Of a DNA stretch of 64,000 nucleotides, positions 46,475 through 54,602 are shown piece after piece. A model generated the notes under the pieces. That model had not been told where the DNA came from and ran no database searches. It saw nothing but the letters and a program-made list of their open reading frames with translations. Made by a program: the position numbers and the translations under genes. Position 1 is the first letter of the stretch; the number at the start of each line of letters is the position of its first letter. Source of the DNA: Halobellus sp. LT62 (lineage in GTDB: Archaea > Halobacteriota > Halobacteria > Halobacteriales > Haloferacaceae). The DNA is taken from positions 744,001-808,000 of the forward strand of contig NZ_JAYEZO010000001.1 of assembly GCF_037031285.1 (NCBI RefSeq), given 5' to 3'.

Positions 46475-46564
46475 CGATAATCGGTATTCGGACATACTGC
46501 TATTTAAATTTTTATTGACTGGCTATTTTCAGTGCCTCCGACTGACGAGATATAGCCACCGGTA

Positions 46565-46583
46565 GTTCCAATATTGTTGAAAT
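46565..46583. promoter_or_regulatory. Probable IclR operator (site 3) upstream of the uronate-dehydrogenase-like gene
   Basis: Read on the minus strand it is ATTTCAACAATATTGGAAC, matching site 1 and site 2 at most positions. It lies about 60 bp before the TATA box of the SDR gene. Confidence 0.6.
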
Positions 46584-46842
46584 TGTAGGCATTCGAGCAT
46601 CCCCATTCATCACAAATGTACGAGTGTTATCAACAGATGGCGGACACAACGGTAACCCGTTGGGGGCAGTTCAGGAGAATTTCAGCATTGTGGGATTCAT
46701 ATATCTTGAGACACACCATCAAGTAATATAAGTGGATATTCAATAATATTATGGGACTTTTTAATTATTTATAGACTGTCATATTGGACTCAGATAATAC
46801 ATCACACAGTTAATGACGTAAGTTCGGGATATTTAAAATGCA

Positions 46843-46866
46843 TTTGAAAATAGATATTTTCAAATA
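46843..46866. promoter_or_regulatory. 24-bp palindrome of unknown role
   Basis: ATTTGAAAATA (46843-46853), spacer GA, TATTTTCAAAT (46856-46866): 11-bp perfect arms. It lies about 140 bp upstream of the PAPS-reductase-like gene and about 370 bp upstream of the SDR gene, and differs from the IclR sites. Confidence 0.5.
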
Positions 46867-46981
46867 GAATTGAATATATACAAACTGTACTATCTTATTC
46901 TTGATAGTGTTTCTGAAGTCGGCGCGTCCCATACCCGCCCAGATCGACTCCCACACCGATGTCAAAAAGCATTTATCCTGC

Positions 46982-47001
46982 TGTAATTAGATATAATTAC
47001 A
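46982..47001. promoter_or_regulatory. 20-bp perfect palindrome at the start of the PAPS-reductase-like gene, probable operator
   Basis: TGTAATTA (46982-46989), GATA, TAATTACA (46994-47001), ending 2 nt before the ATG at 47004 and lying after the TATA-like CATTTATCC. A protein bound here would block initiation, so a repressor site is likely. Confidence 0.6.
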
Positions 47002-47003
47002 CG

Positions 47004-47975
47004 ATGTCAGCCGAGTTCCCCGACTACCTCGACGTCGACTACACCGACGGCGAAGGCGAGACGCCCGCCGACTACCCGACGATCCAAGACAAGCTCGAGA
47101 AGGCCATCGAGGTCACGAAGCGCGGCCTCGAACAGTACGAGAACCCCGCCGTGATGTGGACTGGCGGCAAGGACTCGACGCTCACGCTGTACTTCATCAA
47201 GGAAGTCGCCGAGAAATACGATCTGGAGACGCCGCCGGCGGTCTTCATCGACCACTTCCAGCACTTCGACGAGATCCACGACTTCGTCGACCACTGGGCC
47301 GAGAAGTGGGACCTCGAAGTCATCTACGCGCGCAACGAGGACGTCGGCGCGTACGTCGAAGAGCACGACCTCGAACCCGGTGACGACATCAGCATCTCGG
47401 AGCTCTCCGAGCACAACCAACACCACGTTCGCGACCTGCTCGAGTACGAGGAGGACACCTTCCCCTTCCTGCTCGACACCTACGTCGGCAACCACCTGCT
47501 GAAGACGGTCGCGCTCAACGACGCCCTCGAAACCCACGATGTCGACGGCGTCATCTCCGGCGTCCGCTGGGACGAACAGGAAGCCCGCGCCGACGAGACG
47601 TTCTTCTCACCGCGGCACGATCCCGAGATCTACCCGCCGCACGACCGCATCCAGCCCATCCTCCAGTTCGACGAGGCGTCCGTCTGGGAGGCCTTCTGGA
47701 ACTTCGTCGTCCCCGACACCGTCGAGGGCTACCCCGAGGACGGCTACGTCCCGCAGAGCGCCGAGGACCTGCCGAACGGCCTCACGATGGCGGACATCCC
47801 GGTGTCGCCGAAGTACTTCGCCGGCTTCCGCTCGCTCGGTAGCGAGGTCTCCACCGACAAGACGACAGAAGAGCCCGCGTGGCTGCAGGATATGGCGAAC
47901 ACGACCGAGCGCGCTGGGCGCGCCCAGGACAAGGAGGACCTGATGGAGCGCCTGCGCGACCTCGGCTATATGTAA
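47004..47975 (+). CDS. PAPS reductase/ATP sulfurylase small-subunit-like PP-loop protein
   Basis: The 323-residue protein has the PP-loop TGGKDSTLTLYFIKEVAEKYDLETPPAVFIDHFQHFDEI and later DGVISGVRWDEQEARADETFFSPR and RIQPILQFDEASVWEAFWNF, as in CysD and CysH relatives. It is shorter than or similar to CysD (about 300) and lacks the CysH active-site ECGLH tail. No CysN-type GTPase subunit is adjacent, so the sulfur-pathway role is open; archaeal members may act in other sulfur transfers. The start is set by its TATA-like element about 29 nt upstream and by the operator palindrome. Confidence 0.85.
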   Translation: MSAEFPDYLDVDYTDGEGETPADYPTIQDKLEKAIEVTKRGLEQYENPAVMWTGGKDSTLTLYFIKEVAEKYDLETPPAVFIDHFQHFDEIHDFVDHWAEKWDLEVIYARNEDVGAYVEEHDLEPGDDISISELSEHNQHHVRDLLEYEEDTFPFLLDTYVGNHLLKTVALNDALETHDVDGVISGVRWDEQEARADETFFSPRHDPEIYPPHDRIQPILQFDEASVWEAFWNFVVPDTVEGYPEDGYVPQSAEDLPNGLTMADIPVSPKYFAGFRSLGSEVSTDKTTEEPAWLQDMANTTERAGRAQDKEDLMERLRDLGYM

Positions 47976-48094
47976 CGCGCGGCGACACCGACTTTCTTTG
48001 TACGAGAACGGTTTCCCGCGAACGCATCCGTAGCCTGAGAGCGTGGTACTCAGAGCGACGGAAATTGCTGTATGCCTGCCTCCCCACAACACTA

Positions 48095-48119
48095 AGGTAT
48101 TACGAGAGGTATTACTACC
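48095..48119 (+). promoter_or_regulatory. Direct and inverted repeats before the AbrB gene, probable autoregulatory site
   Basis: AGGTATTAC occurs at 48095-48103 and 48107-48115; the second copy also forms GGTA-TTAC-TACC (48108-48119). The repeats end one base before the ATG of the antitoxin-like gene. Confidence 0.5.
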
Positions 48120-48120
48120 T

Positions 48121-48381
48121 ATGAGCAAATCCACGCGGGTCACGGAGAAGGGGCAGGCCACGATCCCGAAAGAACTCCGCGAGAAGTACGGTCTGAAGCC
48201 CGGCGACCAAGTCGTTTGGATGGACACCGATGAGGGAATCGTCGTGAAAAAGCGCACGCGTACCGGTGGCCGCGGGATGCTGCTTCCCGAAGACACCCCC
48301 GAAGAGAAGCGACAGGAGATCGCCGAAGAACTGGGAAAGCGCGTCCGCGATCGTCGCGAGCGCAACTATGAGGAAGGCTGA
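48121..48381 (+). CDS. AbrB/MazE-type antitoxin of a PIN toxin pair (VapB-like)
   Basis: An 86-residue protein with a SpoVT/AbrB swapped-hairpin domain (STRVTEKGQATIPKELREKYGLKPGDQVVWMDTDEGIVVKKR) and a C-terminal helix (EEKRQEIAEELGKRVRDRRE) that would wrap the toxin. Partnering with the PIN gene immediately downstream, it would neutralise the toxin and repress the operon through the repeats in front of it. The gene order antitoxin-toxin and near-overlap are standard. Confidence 0.92.
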   Translation: MSKSTRVTEKGQATIPKELREKYGLKPGDQVVWMDTDEGIVVKKRTRTGGRGMLLPEDTPEEKRQEIAEELGKRVRDRRERNYEEG

Positions 48382-48382
48382 T

Positions 48383-48790
48383 ATGGCGGTGTACACCGCC
48401 GATGCTGTCGCTTTGTTGGTCTATCTCGTCGACGCACTTCCGCGAGAGGCTGATCAAGTGTTTGCCGAAGCCGAGGCCGGAGAAACAGTCATTCAGGCAC
48501 CGAGTACAGCGCTCGCAGAGGTGATGTACTCCGTTTCTCGCGACAAAGACGTTCGAGGTGTTAGTCTCTCGGGAACGCCGGAGGACGCCCGCCGAGCGCT
48601 GATTGGAAACGGACCAATCTCGGTCGCGCCCGTCGATGACGCGGAGTTGGTCGAGTACGCACAGGTGGTCACCGAGTGCAGTATCCACGACGCGCTGATC
48701 GTCGCTAGTCACCGCGCGCGAGATACAGATGCCATTATCACGACCGACGGCGTAATCGACGAAGCCGACTATGCGACCGTCTGGGAGTAG
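48383..48790 (+). CDS. PIN-domain ribonuclease toxin (VapC-like)
   Basis: The 135-residue protein has the PIN acidic residues: Asp in YTADAVALLVYL, Glu in STALAEVMYSVS, Asp in ECSIHDALIVAS and Asp in AIITTDGVIDEADYATVW. Such toxins cleave tRNA or rRNA when free of antitoxin. The start ATG 48383 follows the antitoxin stop by one base and has GGAAGG ahead; an ATG at 48368 inside the antitoxin gene is an alternative. It lies between the PAPS-reductase-like gene and the cox operon and is unrelated to both. Confidence 0.9.
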   Translation: MAVYTADAVALLVYLVDALPREADQVFAEAEAGETVIQAPSTALAEVMYSVSRDKDVRGVSLSGTPEDARRALIGNGPISVAPVDDAELVEYAQVVTECSIHDALIVASHRARDTDAIITTDGVIDEADYATVWE

Positions 48791-48884: not shown

Positions 48885-50060
48885 CTACTGTGCCGGCGTG
48901 TCGGCGTCGGATCCCACCTCGACGCGCTCGTGGATGGGGCCCTCCCGGTCCTTGAGATGCCGCGGCGTCCGACCGTTCGAGACCGCGAGCACCTCCGCGA
49001 CGATGCTGTGGGCGATCTGGAACGGCGACCCGCCGCCGAGATCCAGCCCGATCGGCGTGTACACTGACGCGAGCGCCTCCTCGCCCCACTCGCTGCCGTC
49101 GTCGTCGAAGGCGTCGAGCATTCGCTCGAAGCGCTCTCTCGGACCCATAATCCCGACGTACGGCACGCCGGCGTCCAGACACGCCTCGACGGTCAACTGA
49201 TCGTCGATGAAGTTGTGCGTCATCACGACCGCGTAGGTCCCCTCGCCGAGTTCGAGGTCGTCGCCGACGCTCCCCGGCGACGTCGTCACCGTTCGGTCGG
49301 CGTCCGGAAACCTCTCACCGAGATCGACGGCCCCGCGGAACCCGACGACTGTCACGCGGAAGTCGTTCTCCGCCGCGAACGCGGTCACCGGCCGGACGTC
49401 GTGGCCGGTCCCGAAGACGACCAGTTCCGGCGGGGCGTCGAGCCCGTCGACGAAGAATTCGACCTCGTCGCCGGCGCGGTCGACGCGGACGGTGCTCGCG
49501 GTGCCGCGCGTCGCGAGTTCCGTCGCCGGCTCGGCCAGCGCATCGATCGGCCACTCGGTCGCGTCCGACCCGTCGGGCAGGTGTAGCGAGCCCGTGTCCG
49601 GGTAGTAGTACGCGCGGTCGCCCTGTTCGAATCGACCGCTCCCGTCGTCGAGGACGGTGACGACGGCGACATCGCGACCCGAGAAGAACGCCTCGACCGC
49701 CGGGCGGTACGTCTCGGTCAGGGGTTCGACGAGTACCTCGATGACACCGTTGCAGCCGACACCGAGGCCCCAGACGTCCTCCTCGTCGTCTTCCATCAGG
49801 TCGTAGGTGATGCGCTTCGGCCGCCCTCGTTCGCGGACCGCGTCACCGACGCGGAGGAGTTCGTCCTCGAGACATCCCGCCGTGATGCTGCCGACGCCGG
49901 TGCCGCCCGCTTCGAGGAGCATCTTCGCTCCCGGCCGCCGGTAGGCGTTCCCCTCGACGTCGACGATCGTCGTGAGGACGTCGGTGGTTTCGCTATCGAG
50001 TCGCTCGCGGATCTGCTGTACGATCTCCGTTTCGGGAACGCTCCAGTGTTGCTGTGTCAT
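48885..50060 (-). CDS. coxF: XdhC/CoxF-family protein, last gene of the CO dehydrogenase operon
   Basis: The 391-residue protein has the XdhC N-terminal domain (ADVLTTIVDVEGNAYRRPGAKMLLEAGG, GSITAGCLEDELL) and the C-terminal Rossmann domain (PELVVFGTGHDVRPVTAFAAENDFRVTVVGFRG, VVMTHNFIDDQLTVEACLDAGVPYVGIMG). XdhC-type proteins bind the molybdenum cofactor and help insert the sulfido ligand before delivery to the apoenzyme. Its ATG overlaps the stop of the DUF364 gene by 4 nt, so it is cotranslated at the end of the cox accessory genes. Confidence 0.88.
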   Translation of the reverse strand: MTQQHWSVPETEIVQQIRERLDSETTDVLTTIVDVEGNAYRRPGAKMLLEAGGTGVGSITAGCLEDELLRVGDAVRERGRPKRITYDLMEDDEEDVWGLGVGCNGVIEVLVEPLTETYRPAVEAFFSGRDVAVVTVLDDGSGRFEQGDRAYYYPDTGSLHLPDGSDATEWPIDALAEPATELATRGTASTVRVDRAGDEVEFFVDGLDAPPELVVFGTGHDVRPVTAFAAENDFRVTVVGFRGAVDLGERFPDADRTVTTSPGSVGDDLELGEGTYAVVMTHNFIDDQLTVEACLDAGVPYVGIMGPRERFERMLDAFDDDGSEWGEEALASVYTPIGLDLGGGSPFQIAHSIVAEVLAVSNGRTPRHLKDREGPIHERVEVGSDADTPAQ

Positions 50061-51004
50061 CTCTGAGTAGTCGGTGAAAACTCGTCAGTCGTCGCTCCGT
50101 CGGCTCCGTCGGCTCCGTCGGCTCCTGCTGCTTCGTCGCTCGAATCGAGTCGACCGCCGGGCGGGCGCTCGCCGAGCAGCAGTCCGGACTGGCTCTCGCG
50201 GGCGACGTCGTTCTCGCGGGCGACGTACACCTTCGTCAGCCCCGCGTCGTGGAGGTCGGTTCCGCACGCGCCCTCCCTGAGTGCGGTCCGAACGCCCGCC
50301 ACGTCGGTCACCCTCGCCCCGGCGACGACGTCGACGCCCGCCGCGAACAGCGGTTCGGGGAGGAACGACGCGGTCGCGCCGATCACGACGACCGTCGCCG
50401 AGGTCGGTGCCGCCTCCAAGTACGCCTCGATACCGCCGTAAATGAACGTCGACCCCGTCACGAAGACGACCTCCGCGCCCGTCATCGCCGAGGCTGTGTC
50501 CGCGGGCGTGAACGTCCGGACCCGCACGCCCGCCGGATCGGGAACGTCATCGACCCGCTCGCGCTCGATCACGCGGACCTCGATGTCGTCGAACTTCCGG
50601 AACGCGGGCGTAAACAGGCCAACCGTCGCAATCCGACCGACGTCGTCGGACAGGAGCGCCATCGGATCCCCCCGCCGCCAGTCGACGAGCGGCGCGGAGA
50701 GCGCGTTCATCGTCGCGGTCCCGAGCGCGCGTTCGCTCCGCGCCGCGGCGTTTCCGTCCGCGGGGGTGGTTCTCTCACCACCGACGTCTGCCGTCACTCC
50801 CGCCAGCAGCGACTCGACGGTCCGGTTCGCCGTGTTCGGCGGCTCGCCGGGCGGCAGGTGCGCCAGTCCGGCCAGCGTCGTCTCGTCCGTCCGGAGTTCG
50901 ACGAGCACCGCGCGATCGCCGACGGTGATTCGATCGACGCTCGCGCCGGTTCTCGTCGCCTGCGGACGAAGCCGCTCTCGCACGGCCGCCAACAACTCGG
51001 TCAC
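50057..51004 (-). CDS. DUF364 (putative chelation/Rossmann-like) protein in the cox operon
   Basis: The 315-residue protein has an N-terminal region like DUF4213 (residues about 1-105) and a DUF364 domain: RIATVGLFTPAFRKFDDIEVRVIERE, EVVFVTGSTFIYGGIEAYL, TVVVIGATASFLPEPLFAAGVDVVAGARVTDV. Structures of the family show a Rossmann-like fold suspected of binding metals or pterins; no reaction is proven. It begins at GTG and overlaps coxE by 4 nt and the XdhC gene by 4 nt, so it belongs to the same operon and is a candidate maturation factor. The C-terminal 40 residues are low-complexity (GADGADGADG). Confidence 0.82.
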   Translation of the reverse strand: MTELLAAVRERLRPQATRTGASVDRITVGDRAVLVELRTDETTLAGLAHLPPGEPPNTANRTVESLLAGVTADVGGERTTPADGNAAARSERALGTATMNALSAPLVDWRRGDPMALLSDDVGRIATVGLFTPAFRKFDDIEVRVIERERVDDVPDPAGVRVRTFTPADTASAMTGAEVVFVTGSTFIYGGIEAYLEAAPTSATVVVIGATASFLPEPLFAAGVDVVAGARVTDVAGVRTALREGACGTDLHDAGLTKVYVARENDVARESQSGLLLGERPPGGRLDSSDEAAGADGADGADGATTDEFSPTTQR

Positions 51005-52443
51005 GTCGAATCACTCCCGCTTGCAACCTCGAACTGCCGCGCGTCGTGCTCGTACCCGATCGCACCGCCCAGCCCGCGCTGTTCGATCTGCCGCGCGGCC
51101 TCGCCGAGATCGGCAGGCTCCGCGAACCCGAACAGGGCGTCGAGGTAGGGCAGCGCCGTCTCCATCCCGCGCGAGGTCGGCGCGAACGCCGACGAGACGG
51201 CCAGCGGGTTGAGCCAGACGACCGCGCTCGCCCGATCGGCGAGCCACGTGACGCCCGCCGCCAGCGTCTCCGGATCGCCCACGTCGAGGCCGTCGCTGAC
51301 GACGACGACCACCGTTCGCCGGTCGACGGCGTAGGGGTGGTCCCGTCGGAGCGTCGCGAACGCCTCGCCGATCTTCGTCCCGCCGCCCCACTCGATCTCG
51401 GCCTCGCGCAGCGCTCTCGTCGGGTCGCCGTCGCCGCGCTCGAACTGCCGTGTCACCTCCACGAGGTCGGTATCGAACAGGAATACGCCGGCGTCGCGAG
51501 CGCTCGCGTGGAGTCGGTCGGCGAACGCCAGCAGGACGCGCCGGTCAATCGTGTCGAGGACCGAGCCGCTCACGTCGATCAGCAGACAGCACCGGAGCTC
51601 GCTCGGGATCGGCTTCGAGGACGGGAGTTTGATCGGCGCGCCCCCGGTCGCGAGGCTCGCGCGGAGCGCCCGTCTGGCCTCGACGTGATCGCCGGTCGAG
51701 GCGTGGCGGCGACGTCGACCCGGGAGCGTCGAGAGGGCGTCGACGAATCGATCGATGGCCGTGACTTCCGCGCGCGATAATTGCGCCGGGTCGACGTCCA
51801 CGCGCTCGCGCTCGCCGACCGCGCTGTACCGGCGCGCGTCGCGCTCGCCGGTCGATTCCGGCCTCTCGCCCGTCGCGTGCCGCCGCTCGGTCGGGATCCG
51901 AACGGCGACGGGGCCGTCGCTCTCCTCGGCGTCGGTGAATTCGGGAGCCTCGGCGTCCGCCAATACGCCCGCCTCGTCGGCGTCCGAATCGGCCGATGCG
52001 GACGCGTCGGTCCCGTCGCGATCCCCCTCGTCTATGGGCGTGTCGTGCTCTGTCGCGACCGCGCTCAGTCCCGATCGGAGCCGGTGCCAGAACGTCGGGA
52101 ACAGCGATTCGAAGGCGTCGGCGTCGGCCGGCTCCGAGAGCAGCGTCGCCCGGAGCGCGTCCGCGACGCGACTCCGGTCGTCGAGGCCGACGACCGAGAG
52201 CGCGCGGGCGGCAGCGAGCGTGTCGCTCGGGGGGACGGTGACGCCCTCCGATCTGAGCTTCGCCGCCAGTCGGAGCAGTTCGATCAGCGCGTGCCGTCGC
52301 GCCGCGCGGAAGTCCGGAACGCCGTCGCGCGTCGAGAACCGGTCGAAGTCGCGATCGGCACCGTCGACGCCGCGCTCCCCGTCAGTTGCCAACGGCTCGA
52401 AATCGATCGCGTTCTCCGCCGGATCGCCGTTGTCGAAATTCAT
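51001..52443 (-). CDS. coxE: CoxE: von Willebrand A-domain protein for CO dehydrogenase maturation
   Basis: The 480-residue protein has an N-terminal helical part (DFRAARRHALIELLRLAAKLRSEGVTVPPSD), a long acidic disordered stretch (about 130-210) and a VWA domain with the MIDAS motif CLLIDVSGSVLDT (Asp290, Ser292, Ser294) and VVVVVSDGLDVGDPETL. CoxE works with the MoxR-type ATPase CoxD in forming the [CuSMoO2] centre of form I CO dehydrogenase. It lies 6 nt after coxD, and its stop overlaps the DUF364 start. Confidence 0.93.
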   Translation of the reverse strand: MNFDNGDPAENAIDFEPLATDGERGVDGADRDFDRFSTRDGVPDFRAARRHALIELLRLAAKLRSEGVTVPPSDTLAAARALSVVGLDDRSRVADALRATLLSEPADADAFESLFPTFWHRLRSGLSAVATEHDTPIDEGDRDGTDASASADSDADEAGVLADAEAPEFTDAEESDGPVAVRIPTERRHATGERPESTGERDARRYSAVGERERVDVDPAQLSRAEVTAIDRFVDALSTLPGRRRRHASTGDHVEARRALRASLATGGAPIKLPSSKPIPSELRCCLLIDVSGSVLDTIDRRVLLAFADRLHASARDAGVFLFDTDLVEVTRQFERGDGDPTRALREAEIEWGGGTKIGEAFATLRRDHPYAVDRRTVVVVVSDGLDVGDPETLAAGVTWLADRASAVVWLNPLAVSSAFAPTSRGMETALPYLDALFGFAEPADLGEAARQIEQRGLGGAIGYEHDARQFEVASGSDST

Positions 52444-52449
52444 GTGGGA

Positions 52450-53517
52450 TCAGGCTTCGATGCGGTCGTCGGCCGCGGCGGCGGCCTCCCGAAGCTGTTC
52501 GAGCAGCTCCGTGTCGACCCGTGCGAAGTCCTCGGCCTCCTTGAGCAGGCAGCCGAGCGTGCGTTCGATCTCGGCCGTCGAGAGCGGTTCGTCCGAATCG
52601 TCGTGCCGGAGTTGCGCCACCGCGCGCGCCCAATCGAGTGTCTCGGCGACGCCCGGCTGCTTGAGAAACGCCTCCTCGCGCAGGCGCGCGACGATCGCGC
52701 ACACCTCCGCGGCGACGGTCGCATCGAGTTCGGGTACCTTCCGGCGGAGGATCTCGTACTCGTCCTCGAACGACGGCGGTTCGACGTGGAGGTACAGACA
52801 CCGGCGCTTCAGCGCGTCCGACAGTCCCCGCGTCCGGTTCGACGTGAGAATGACGATCGGCGGTTGCTCGGCTTTCACGGTGCCGTACTCCGGGATCGAC
52901 ACCTGAAAGTCCGAGAGCAGTTCGAGCAGGAACGCCTCGAACTCCGCGTCGGCGCGGTCGATCTCGTCGACCAACAGGACCGGCGGCACGTCGCCACCCG
53001 CCCTGAGCGCGCGGAGCAGCGGACGTTCGAGGAGGTACTCCTCGTCGAAAACCGACCGCTCGCGACCCCCGTGGTCGTCGTCCGAGGAGGTCCGGTGGCT
53101 GTCGTCCGAGGTGGTCCGGTGGCTGTCATCCGAGGTGGTCCGGTGGCTGTCATCCGAGGTGGTCCGGTGGCTGCCGCCCGAGGAGATACCGCCGGCGTCG
53201 GTTCCGCCCGCCACCGTGCCCTCGTCGGCTTGGACGGCCAGGAGTTGCTTCGTGTAGTTCCACTCGTAGAGCGCGTTCTCGGCGGTGAGCCCCTCGTAAC
53301 ACTGCAGGCGGATGAGCTCGGTATCGAAGCCGCTCGCCAGCACCTTCCCGAGCTCGGTCTTCCCGCTCCCGGGCGGACCCTCGACGAGCAGCGGCCGCCC
53401 GAGCGTCAGCGCGAGGTGGACGGTCGTGACCGTTCGGTCGTCGGCGACGTACGATTCCGCCGCGAAGCGGTCTTCGAGGTCCGACGGCGACAGCGACGCG
53501 AACGCGTTCGCCGTCAT
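52450..53517 (-). CDS. coxD: CoxD: MoxR-type AAA+ ATPase for CO dehydrogenase maturation
   Basis: A 355-residue AAA+ ATPase: Walker A GPPGSGKT at 47-54, Walker [12 protein letters not shown] at 180-190, sensor 1 [24 protein letters not shown]. In CO-oxidising bacteria CoxD is an unfoldase needed to build the copper-sulfur part of the active site together with CoxE. Between the ATPase core motifs is an insertion of four 8-residue repeats (SHRTTSDD-type, residues 116-147), absent from usual MoxR proteins. The ATG overlaps the stop of the XdhC-YHS gene by 4 nt. Confidence 0.94.
53077..53172. repeat. In-frame 24-bp tandem repeat (four copies) inside coxD
   Basis: Four 24-bp units code for SHRTTSDD three times and SHRTSSDD once. 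Because 24 is divisible by three, gain or loss of copies keeps the frame. Confidence 0.92.
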
Positions 53518-54602
53518 ACTGACTCCGCGGGGGCGTCGAGGTACGACTCCGGATCCGCGCTGAACGACTCCGCACAGCCCTCACAACAGAAGTAGTACGT
53601 CTCCCCGTCGTGCTCGACCGAGGGAGCCGTCTCCGGGTCGGCGGTCATCCCGCAGACCGGGTCGGTGGCGAGTTCGGCCGTCCCGTCGTCGCCGTCGTCC
53701 GCGGCCGTGTCGGCGTCGTCGCGTTCGCCGGATGCGCCGGGTTCGATCTCGGCCGCGTTCGAACCTCCGCGCGATCGCGCGTCGACGACCTCGGCGAGAA
53801 TGCTCACGGCGATCTCGGCGGGCGTGTACGCGGCAATGTCGACGCCCGCAGGGTTCGTGACGGCGTCTGCGATCTCCCCGGGGTCGGCGTCGAGCAGCGT
53901 CGCCGCCCGCTCTTTCACCTCGTCGCTTCGGGTGTCGCTGGCGACGAGACCGATATACGGCGCGCCGGCTCTGACCCCCGCGGCGACGCCGCGAGCGTCG
54001 TATTTCCCCATCGAGGCGACGACGACGAGCGGCGCGGGGCCGACCGCCTCGACGATGGCGTCGGGATCGGCCGTCTCGACGACTCTGTCGGCAGCCCCGT
54101 CGCCGCCGTCGGGGTCGACGCTCACGACGTCGACGGCCAGTTCGCCCGCGAGCCGCGAGAGCGACCGCGCGACCGGCGAGTCGCCGACGATCACCAACTC
54201 GGGCCGCGGGTTCACCGGCTCGATGAACAGTTCGAGGACGCCCTCGCTGTGACAGTGCATCGGGAAGGCAGCCAGCCCGGGGCGTTCGATCTCCTCGGGA
54301 TCGGGCGCGATGCCGACGAACCGCGGCTCGCCGTCCTCCAGCGCGGCCAGCGCCTCGCTCGTCGCAGTCGTCTGCGCGCAGGCCGCACCCCCGATCCACC
54401 CGTGGAGTTCGCCGTCGGCCGTGACGACCGCCCGGTCGCCGACGTTCGCGGACACCGGGGGCTCGCGGCGGACGATCGTCACGCGGGCGTACGCCTCGCC
54501 GTTCTCCTCCAATCCCGCCTCTAGGGCGGCGATGTCGCCGTCGTTGATCTTCTCCCGGTGTGGGGGGTCGTTGCCTCCCGTGTGTGAGTCGTTCCCTGTC
54601 AT
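53514..54602 (-). CDS. XdhC-like protein fused to a C-terminal YHS domain (CoxI-like)
   Basis: The 362-residue protein has an XdhC-type N-terminal region ([41 protein letters not shown]) and Rossmann domain ([39 protein letters not shown]), then an acidic linker and a YHS domain ([15 protein letters not shown]... [14 protein letters not shown]). YHS domains bind copper or other metals through cysteines, which would suit delivery of copper to the CuSMo site, though this is inference. It follows coxL after a 206-bp gap and overlaps coxD by 4 nt. It is one of two XdhC paralogues in the operon. Confidence 0.87.

Follow-up and report, generated by a model that had tools for sequence, protein, structure and literature searches.

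A small regulon probably extends across the haloarchaea as an order, in which a 70-residue ribbon-helix-helix protein (RHH-B) would repress, from a palindromic box, the gene of a PP-loop protein and that of a small membrane protein, and in which a diverged relative (RHH-A) would regulate its own gene through the same box. The regulon was delineated by computation, from the site itself, its conservation and spacing, the genes lying behind it, its co-occurrence with RHH-B and its presence at RHH-A promoters. The palindrome was noticed in a stretch of 64,000 nucleotides of Halobellus sp. LT62 (contig NZ_JAYEZO010000001.1, positions 744,001 to 808,000), hereafter the window, whose own numbering is used below. 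To our knowledge, few haloarchaeal operators have been matched with a regulator. Here, a nearly invariant putative operator recurs throughout an order and the presence of one tiny candidate protein predicts the site, a combination that is testable in Haloferax.

The initial annotation placed the palindrome 2 nt before an ATG and downstream of a TATA box, and both the sequence and its position were confirmed. The features of this region of the window are the following:

46963..46976, plus strand: BRE-like CAAAAAG and TATA-like TTTAT, named from the sequence and from general knowledge and taken by us to be the core promoter; the columns are conserved.
46982..47001, no strand: putative operator palindrome, or TAATTA box, TGTAATTA-GATA-TAATTACA; exact, and kept in 76 of 80 named orthologues.
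46984..46989, no strand: first palindromic hexamer TAATTA; positions 2, 3, 4 and 6 invariant in 76/76 boxes.
46994..46999, no strand: second palindromic hexamer TAATTA, 10 bp past the first; a TCATTA variant exists.
47004..47975, plus strand: gene of a PP-loop, CysD/CysH-like protein of 323 aa (PF01507, E 9.4e-18), putatively controlled by the box.

Both arms of the palindrome are perfect, with the TATA-like TTTAT (46972-46976) shortly 5' of it and the ATG at 47004. The same letters can alternatively be read as TAATTA-N4-TAATTA, i.e. two hexamers, each palindromic in itself, one helical turn apart, which form an inverted and a direct repeat at once. An in-frame upstream ATG at 46959 would place the palindrome within the gene; this start was disfavoured and 47004 retained because, in orthologues, the first ATG mostly lies 3 nt (46/76) or 5 nt (25/76, together 71/76) past the 18-base box. 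A scan for bacterial sigma-70 promoters gave no match. The 482 bases upstream of the palindrome (46500-46981), intergenic and flanked by divergent genes, are AT-rich (38% GC vs 65% window-wide), and the same AT-rich stretch holds a second perfect AT-rich palindrome, ATTTGAAAATA-GA-TATTTTCAAAT, at 46842-46865, 117 bases upstream of the box. Downstream of the PP-loop gene, two overlapping open reading frames occupy 48043-48790, one of them coding for an AbrB/MazE-type antitoxin-like protein (PF04014) and the other for a protein with no Pfam match, which, at a guess, is possibly the partner toxin. Further on (48885-54602), a run of minus-strand frames has the look of a maturation cluster of XdhC/CoxI, VWA and MoxR type, names suggested by the translations and only presumptive.

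Although perfect 8-bp inverted repeats are common in the window (56, counting overlaps and loops of 0-8), chance was ruled out as the origin of this one by its conservation. With up to 3 mismatches allowed, the window contains one match to the palindrome, vs none in 100 shuffles; in the genome (3.23 Mb) the palindrome occurs exactly once, and the next best match there carries 3 mismatches. When the box was sought within 75 bases upstream of 80 named haloarchaeal orthologues (the best 80 of 328), it was found with at most 2 of 16 scored positions mismatched in 76 of them (no mismatch in 44, one in 28, two in 4), whereas 80 control stretches taken 185-275 bases upstream never contained it, the best having 6 mismatches; the palindrome therefore stands above chance. 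The four orthologues without the box belong to three Halobacterium (L023, L026, L068) and to strain SHRA6 (L069). The consensus of the 76 boxes is CTAATTA(T/G)AT(C/G)T(A/C)ATTAC, with 14 of its 18 positions nearly invariant, symmetric ones among them. In the first hexamer position 1 is kept in 75/76 and position 5 in 73/76, and in the second five of six positions are invariant in 76/76, position 2 being A in 51 boxes and C in 25. Because the sequence 5' of the promoter is, by eye, unrelated between genera, the box appears to have been kept by selection and not by recent kinship.

In these 76 of the 80 orthologues the box sits between TATA box and start codon, and a TATA-like core starts 9-10 nt before its 18 bases in 66 of the 76. 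The earlier proposal of an operator-like site at which a bound protein would block initiation is thus supported, the spacing to the TATA region being kept over the order; the palindrome is best regarded as an operator with a putative binding partner. The same spacing bears on a reading of the palindrome as an RNA hairpin in the 5' leader, acting as an attenuator or in a riboswitch-like manner, in which an 8-bp stem with a 4-nt loop could form. By the general rule for the distance between TATA box and start point, transcription would begin at about the end of the box and leave the stem untranscribed, so that this reading retains hardly any probability. An AT-rich sequence placed immediately ahead of the probable start point, a position at which ready melting is an advantage, might also be a core-promoter element (initiator or melting) rather than a regulator's site; the near invariance of 14 of 18 positions, including symmetric ones, makes this highly improbable, and so does the behaviour of the box in genomes without RHH-B, from which it is gone while a TATA-like sequence, judged by eye, is still present in many of the promoters.

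The gene behind the box is widespread, with a match at E <= 0.001 in 287 of the 293 genomes sampled from the order, and its closest named relatives are found in Halobellus species. Its product reaches the PAPS_reduct domain PF01507 (65.3 bits, cut-off 22.5), but the name PAPS-reductase-like used in the initial annotation proved shaky, since the protein falls far under the cut-offs of both families that share this domain, i.e. the CysH NCBIfam equivalog (32.5 of 154 bits) and CysD (62 of 396.6 bits for TIGR02039, 80.1 of 195 bits for NF003587). CysH requires a catalytic cysteine, and there is none in the 323 residues. The closest solved structure, by sequence as well as by fold, is chain A of 1zun, an ATP sulfurylase subunit, and the predicted structure (mean pLDDT 67, moderate) is likewise that of a PP-loop protein. 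The enzyme is thus a PP-loop protein and probably not a PAPS reductase, and it should be read as a nucleotide-activating PP-loop enzyme whose substrate is unassigned. Four box-less tandem paralogues, 60-64% identical and located nearby (L171, L172, L173 and L174, in G116, G299, G294 and G304, respectively), were excluded from the co-occurrence counts given below.

Judged by sequence comparison across genomes, RHH-B is the prime candidate for binding the box; in this genome (G000) it is encoded outside the window, at C2:784184-784390. Another RHH-B gene lies at C2:628767-628973 of G324 (the genome of L014) and has a homologue in Haloferax. This 70-aa protein matches Pfam RHH_1 PF01402 (23.3 bits, cut-off 20.5, E 5.8e-5), contains no cysteine and shares with RHH-A the N-terminal strand EYTT(I/V)S, the strand with which ribbon-helix-helix proteins touch the bases. 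Typing of 293 genomes by E-value gave 226 with RHH-B, 28 with RHH-A and 39 with neither (19 of the 39 by elimination). Queried with RHH-B, RHH-B genomes fell below 1e-27 and RHH-A genomes between 1.7e-10 and 3.4e-7, two RHH-A genomes (G146 and G155) failing to reach 1e-6; queried with RHH-A, RHH-A genomes fell below 1e-24 and RHH-B genomes between 1.0e-10 and 3.3e-6.

The box was present at the PP-loop gene in all 78 RHH-B genomes examined of the 226, largely those nearest to the window's gene rather than drawn at random, in none of 29 loci from the 28 RHH-A genomes (a second copy in G272 was left out), and in 2 of 29 loci with neither protein (32 such genomes carry the gene at E 1e-30, and all but G001, G032 and G042 were covered). 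The two exceptions, with a box and no RHH-B found, are G002 (86% complete) and G133 (77%). RHH-B status was also forecast beforehand from box status, and the forecast held in 8 of 8 cases: RHH-B occurs in the box-bearing G294, G299, G304 and G317 and is missing from the box-less G296, G297, G302 and G306. Among 28 of the 80 named genomes, RHH-B was found in 24/24 with the box and 0/4 without. Pooling the genomes whose gene was examined, the box accompanies 82/82 RHH-B genomes vs 2/61 others (Fisher p 2e-38, a value that ignores kinship).

Correction for kinship tempers this figure. A quick tree built from the PP-loop protein shows 7 changes in the state of the box, leaving 4 well-supported independent pairs (sign test, median p 0.125); over 200 pairings, 3.9 pairs were concordant on average and none was ever discordant. 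The association is thus very regular, but its support comes from a small number of independent events. It also holds within genera, as both the box at this gene and RHH-B are missing from G148 (g46) and G224 (g71), the latter carrying RHH-A instead, and the genus mates examined (G043, G182, G268) have both box and RHH-B. Ten genomes lack the box altogether when one mismatch is allowed. Eight of them yielded no RHH-B or RHH-A; the other two, G303 (70% complete) and G314 (80%), have RHH-B, and the PP-loop gene was not found in the incomplete G303. RHH-B genes themselves are not preceded by a box, the best candidate having at least 6 mismatches in 59 of 61 loci (two unplaced), nor does RHH-B lie beside its supposed targets in the stretches read. 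A comparison of six stretches of 16-17 kb, with the open reading frames of three read, revealed no conserved neighbours that would explain its function, and a search for RHH-B on plasmids gave no match.

Another regulator, lost alongside RHH-B, could in principle own the operator, the RHH genes then being hitch-hikers or, in RHH-A lineages, further targets. The small number of independent events, the lack of linkage of RHH-B to its targets and of a box of its own, and the four incomplete genomes in which box and RHH-B do not go together are all in keeping with such a scenario, in which RHH-A could be a mere target of the box. We nevertheless consider it distinctly unlikely: the eight forecasts held, two palindromic hexamers 10 bp apart suit paired RHH dimers as these are generally known, the only other regulator compared, CdrS, shows no such co-occurrence pattern, and RHH-A directly precedes the other target of the box, the membrane-protein family described below.

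Whole-genome pattern scans covered the window's own genome, 60 genomes of its family including that one, 31 of family f7 and 29 of family f4, allowing up to one mismatch in the window's family and up to two in f7 and f4. In 103 of the 120 genomes scanned there were 1-3 matches, ten genomes having none and seven more than three, a scarcity that further argues against a core-promoter element; reversed as a control, the pattern was likewise matched in certain genomes richer in AT (G060 among them). The window's genome has a single clear box. Elsewhere, a recurrent second site directly precedes the gene of a protein of about 60 aa with two hydrophobic stretches, i.e. a two-helix membrane protein. 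Forty second sites were sampled from the matches listed, one per genome (17 from f7, 17 from f4, 6 from the window's family), and evaluated with a hidden Markov model built from 21 membrane proteins of other genomes. The membrane-protein family came next in 34 of the 40 by the model (24-72 bits) and in one more by reading (G109), DUF2061 in two (G119, G075), and the remaining three (G208, G351, G267; one or two mismatches) precede neither. Assignment to DUF2061 (PF09834) was confirmed by profile for the protein of G101 (64.8 bits, cut-off 23.1), the remaining DUF2061 proteins being recognised by pattern, reading or record annotation. On a plasmid of Halobellus limi, an exact TAATTA box (L458:2953-2968) precedes a DUF2061 gene, just upstream of a TATA-like region; two other haloarchaeal plasmid genes for DUF2061 have no box in front.

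The identity of these targets is relevant to the signal. The initial annotation had suggested control by sulfur or redox state, with the same palindrome at other sulfur genes, and the PP-loop family does include sulfate-activating and thiolation enzymes; DUF2061, moreover, is associated with APS kinase. A response of the same operator to sulfur limitation or oxidation would be compatible with repression by RHH-B. Yet a regulon of sulfur genes was rejected: the recurrent targets are the membrane protein and DUF2061, no further sulfur gene was recognised among the box sites inspected in the scanned genomes, and the box does not mark sulfur genes in general. On four annotated plasmids (three haloarchaeal, one from Bradyrhizobium), no sulfur-assimilation neighbour of DUF2061 is named. 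Cysteine is absent from RHH-B and from the enzyme, so direct sensing through thiols is unlikely, and the 28 RHH-A proteins are equally devoid of this residue. With the membrane protein, DUF2061 and RHH-A as its other targets, sulfur or redox control is unsupported by our data and, as a signal for this operator, appears doubtful.

RHH-A provides a second view of the box. In genus g3, the box is absent from the PP-loop gene and instead precedes the gene of RHH-A, a protein of 66 aa; the same holds for RHH-A genes in general, a box being found in front of 28/28, one per genome, with 0-2 mismatches of 14 scored positions, vs at least 6 in control stretches. In three g3 loci (L140, L141, L142) the box lies between divergent genes for RHH-A and for what, from its translation alone, is presumably a riboflavin synthase-like protein. 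RHH-A reached no ribbon-helix-helix model in Pfam, giving one weak HAAS match (E 0.099), and it is therefore tied to RHH-B by sequence similarity only. At RHH-A promoters the start of the box is 37-60 nt away from the ATG, and in most of them a TATA-like sequence comes right after the box, an arrangement that suits neither a core-promoter element nor a transcribed hairpin. By reading, the next gene belongs to the membrane-protein family in 22 of the 28 loci, and all eight proteins tested match its model (19.7-38.3 bits; best of 450 shuffles 12.5). DUF2061 follows RHH-A in five loci of family f12, one confirmed by Pfam, and a broken DUF2061-like frame in another locus (L200). In G101 (L312), box, RHH-A, DUF2061 and the PP-loop gene follow one another in a compact cluster. 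The genes next to RHH-A and the G101 arrangement link regulator, membrane protein and enzyme with the box.

Our preferred explanation, repression by RHH-B, can be formulated as follows. Two RHH-B dimers would sit side by side on the box, one per TAATTA hexamer and one helical turn apart. Because the box reaches from the TATA region approximately to the transcription start, RHH-B bound between TATA box and start codon would exclude TFB and RNA polymerase and so repress, rather than activate, the gene of the CysD/CysH-like PP-loop protein and, in many genomes, that of the two-helix membrane protein of about 60 aa. We infer that RHH-A binds the same box and is co-transcribed with the gene that follows it, in which case it would autoregulate an operon of RHH-A with the membrane protein or with DUF2061; in front of RHH-A and some DUF2061 genes, with the box immediately 5' of the TATA-like sequence, a bound protein would cover the BRE. 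A classical sensor domain would not fit into the 70 residues of RHH-B, which include no cysteine, and the action of the protein may depend on its abundance, on a small co-repressor or on a partner. The PP-loop gene may be tightly controlled, as was first proposed.

More tentatively, although it falls somewhat short of being probable, the regulon could represent a previously undescribed order-wide circuit, in which a sensorless repressor of 70 aa acts on about two promoters per genome, those of the near-universal PP-loop enzyme and of the membrane protein of about 60 aa, which would jointly form a membrane-associated sulfur- or nucleotide-activating system. The diverged relative would, in several lineages, have taken the repressor's place, its gene and that of the membrane protein forming one operon behind the same box, and the enzyme would have been freed from control. 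The box would tie two uncharacterised and widespread proteins, the PP-loop enzyme and the two-helix micro-protein, into one function.

Comparison with known systems would place RHH-B among small repressors of familiar type. Repressors of the MetJ/CopG type bind as ribbon-helix-helix dimers to adjacent short boxes in the promoters that they repress; the candidate system differs in its hexamer, TAATTA, in acting at an archaeal promoter and in having no known co-repressor. The nearest solved ribbon-helix-helix sequence is NikR (PDB 2bj1; E 0.0039, residues 6-47), whose chain of 138 residues includes a C-terminal metal-binding half that is missing from RHH-B; with 21.5 of 105 bits, only 70 aa and no C-terminal nickel domain, RHH-B was rejected as a NikR. 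A search of openly licensed papers for the motif, the enzyme and RHH/CopG regulators in haloarchaea returned no named match to the regulon. Among the closest described systems is CdrS, the ribbon-helix-helix regulator of cell division in Haloferax volcanii (HVO_0582), for which 18 ChIP-Seq binding sites and a symmetric DNA motif have been reported, 15 of the 18 sites lying 41-110 nt upstream of the transcription start (PMC8406309). In the passages considered here, cdrS lies three nucleotides before ftsZ2, and the targets visible there include no PP-loop or PAPS gene (PMC8406309). CdrS (NF058555) and RHH-B are alike in being tiny haloarchaeal ribbon-helix-helix proteins with a symmetric DNA motif, that of RHH-B being a candidate, but RHH-B scores 13.4 bits against the NF058555 cut-off of 100, and the true CdrS is a separate gene of this genome (C1:468543). 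CdrS was rejected as the regulator of the box on these grounds and on that of its other visible targets; as it occurs in 34/34 genomes searched, whether or not they have the box, the distribution of the box cannot be due to it. Repressors of the ribbon-helix-helix type with palindromic operators are thus known, and what is new in the putative system described here is a very small regulon of this kind spanning an entire order.
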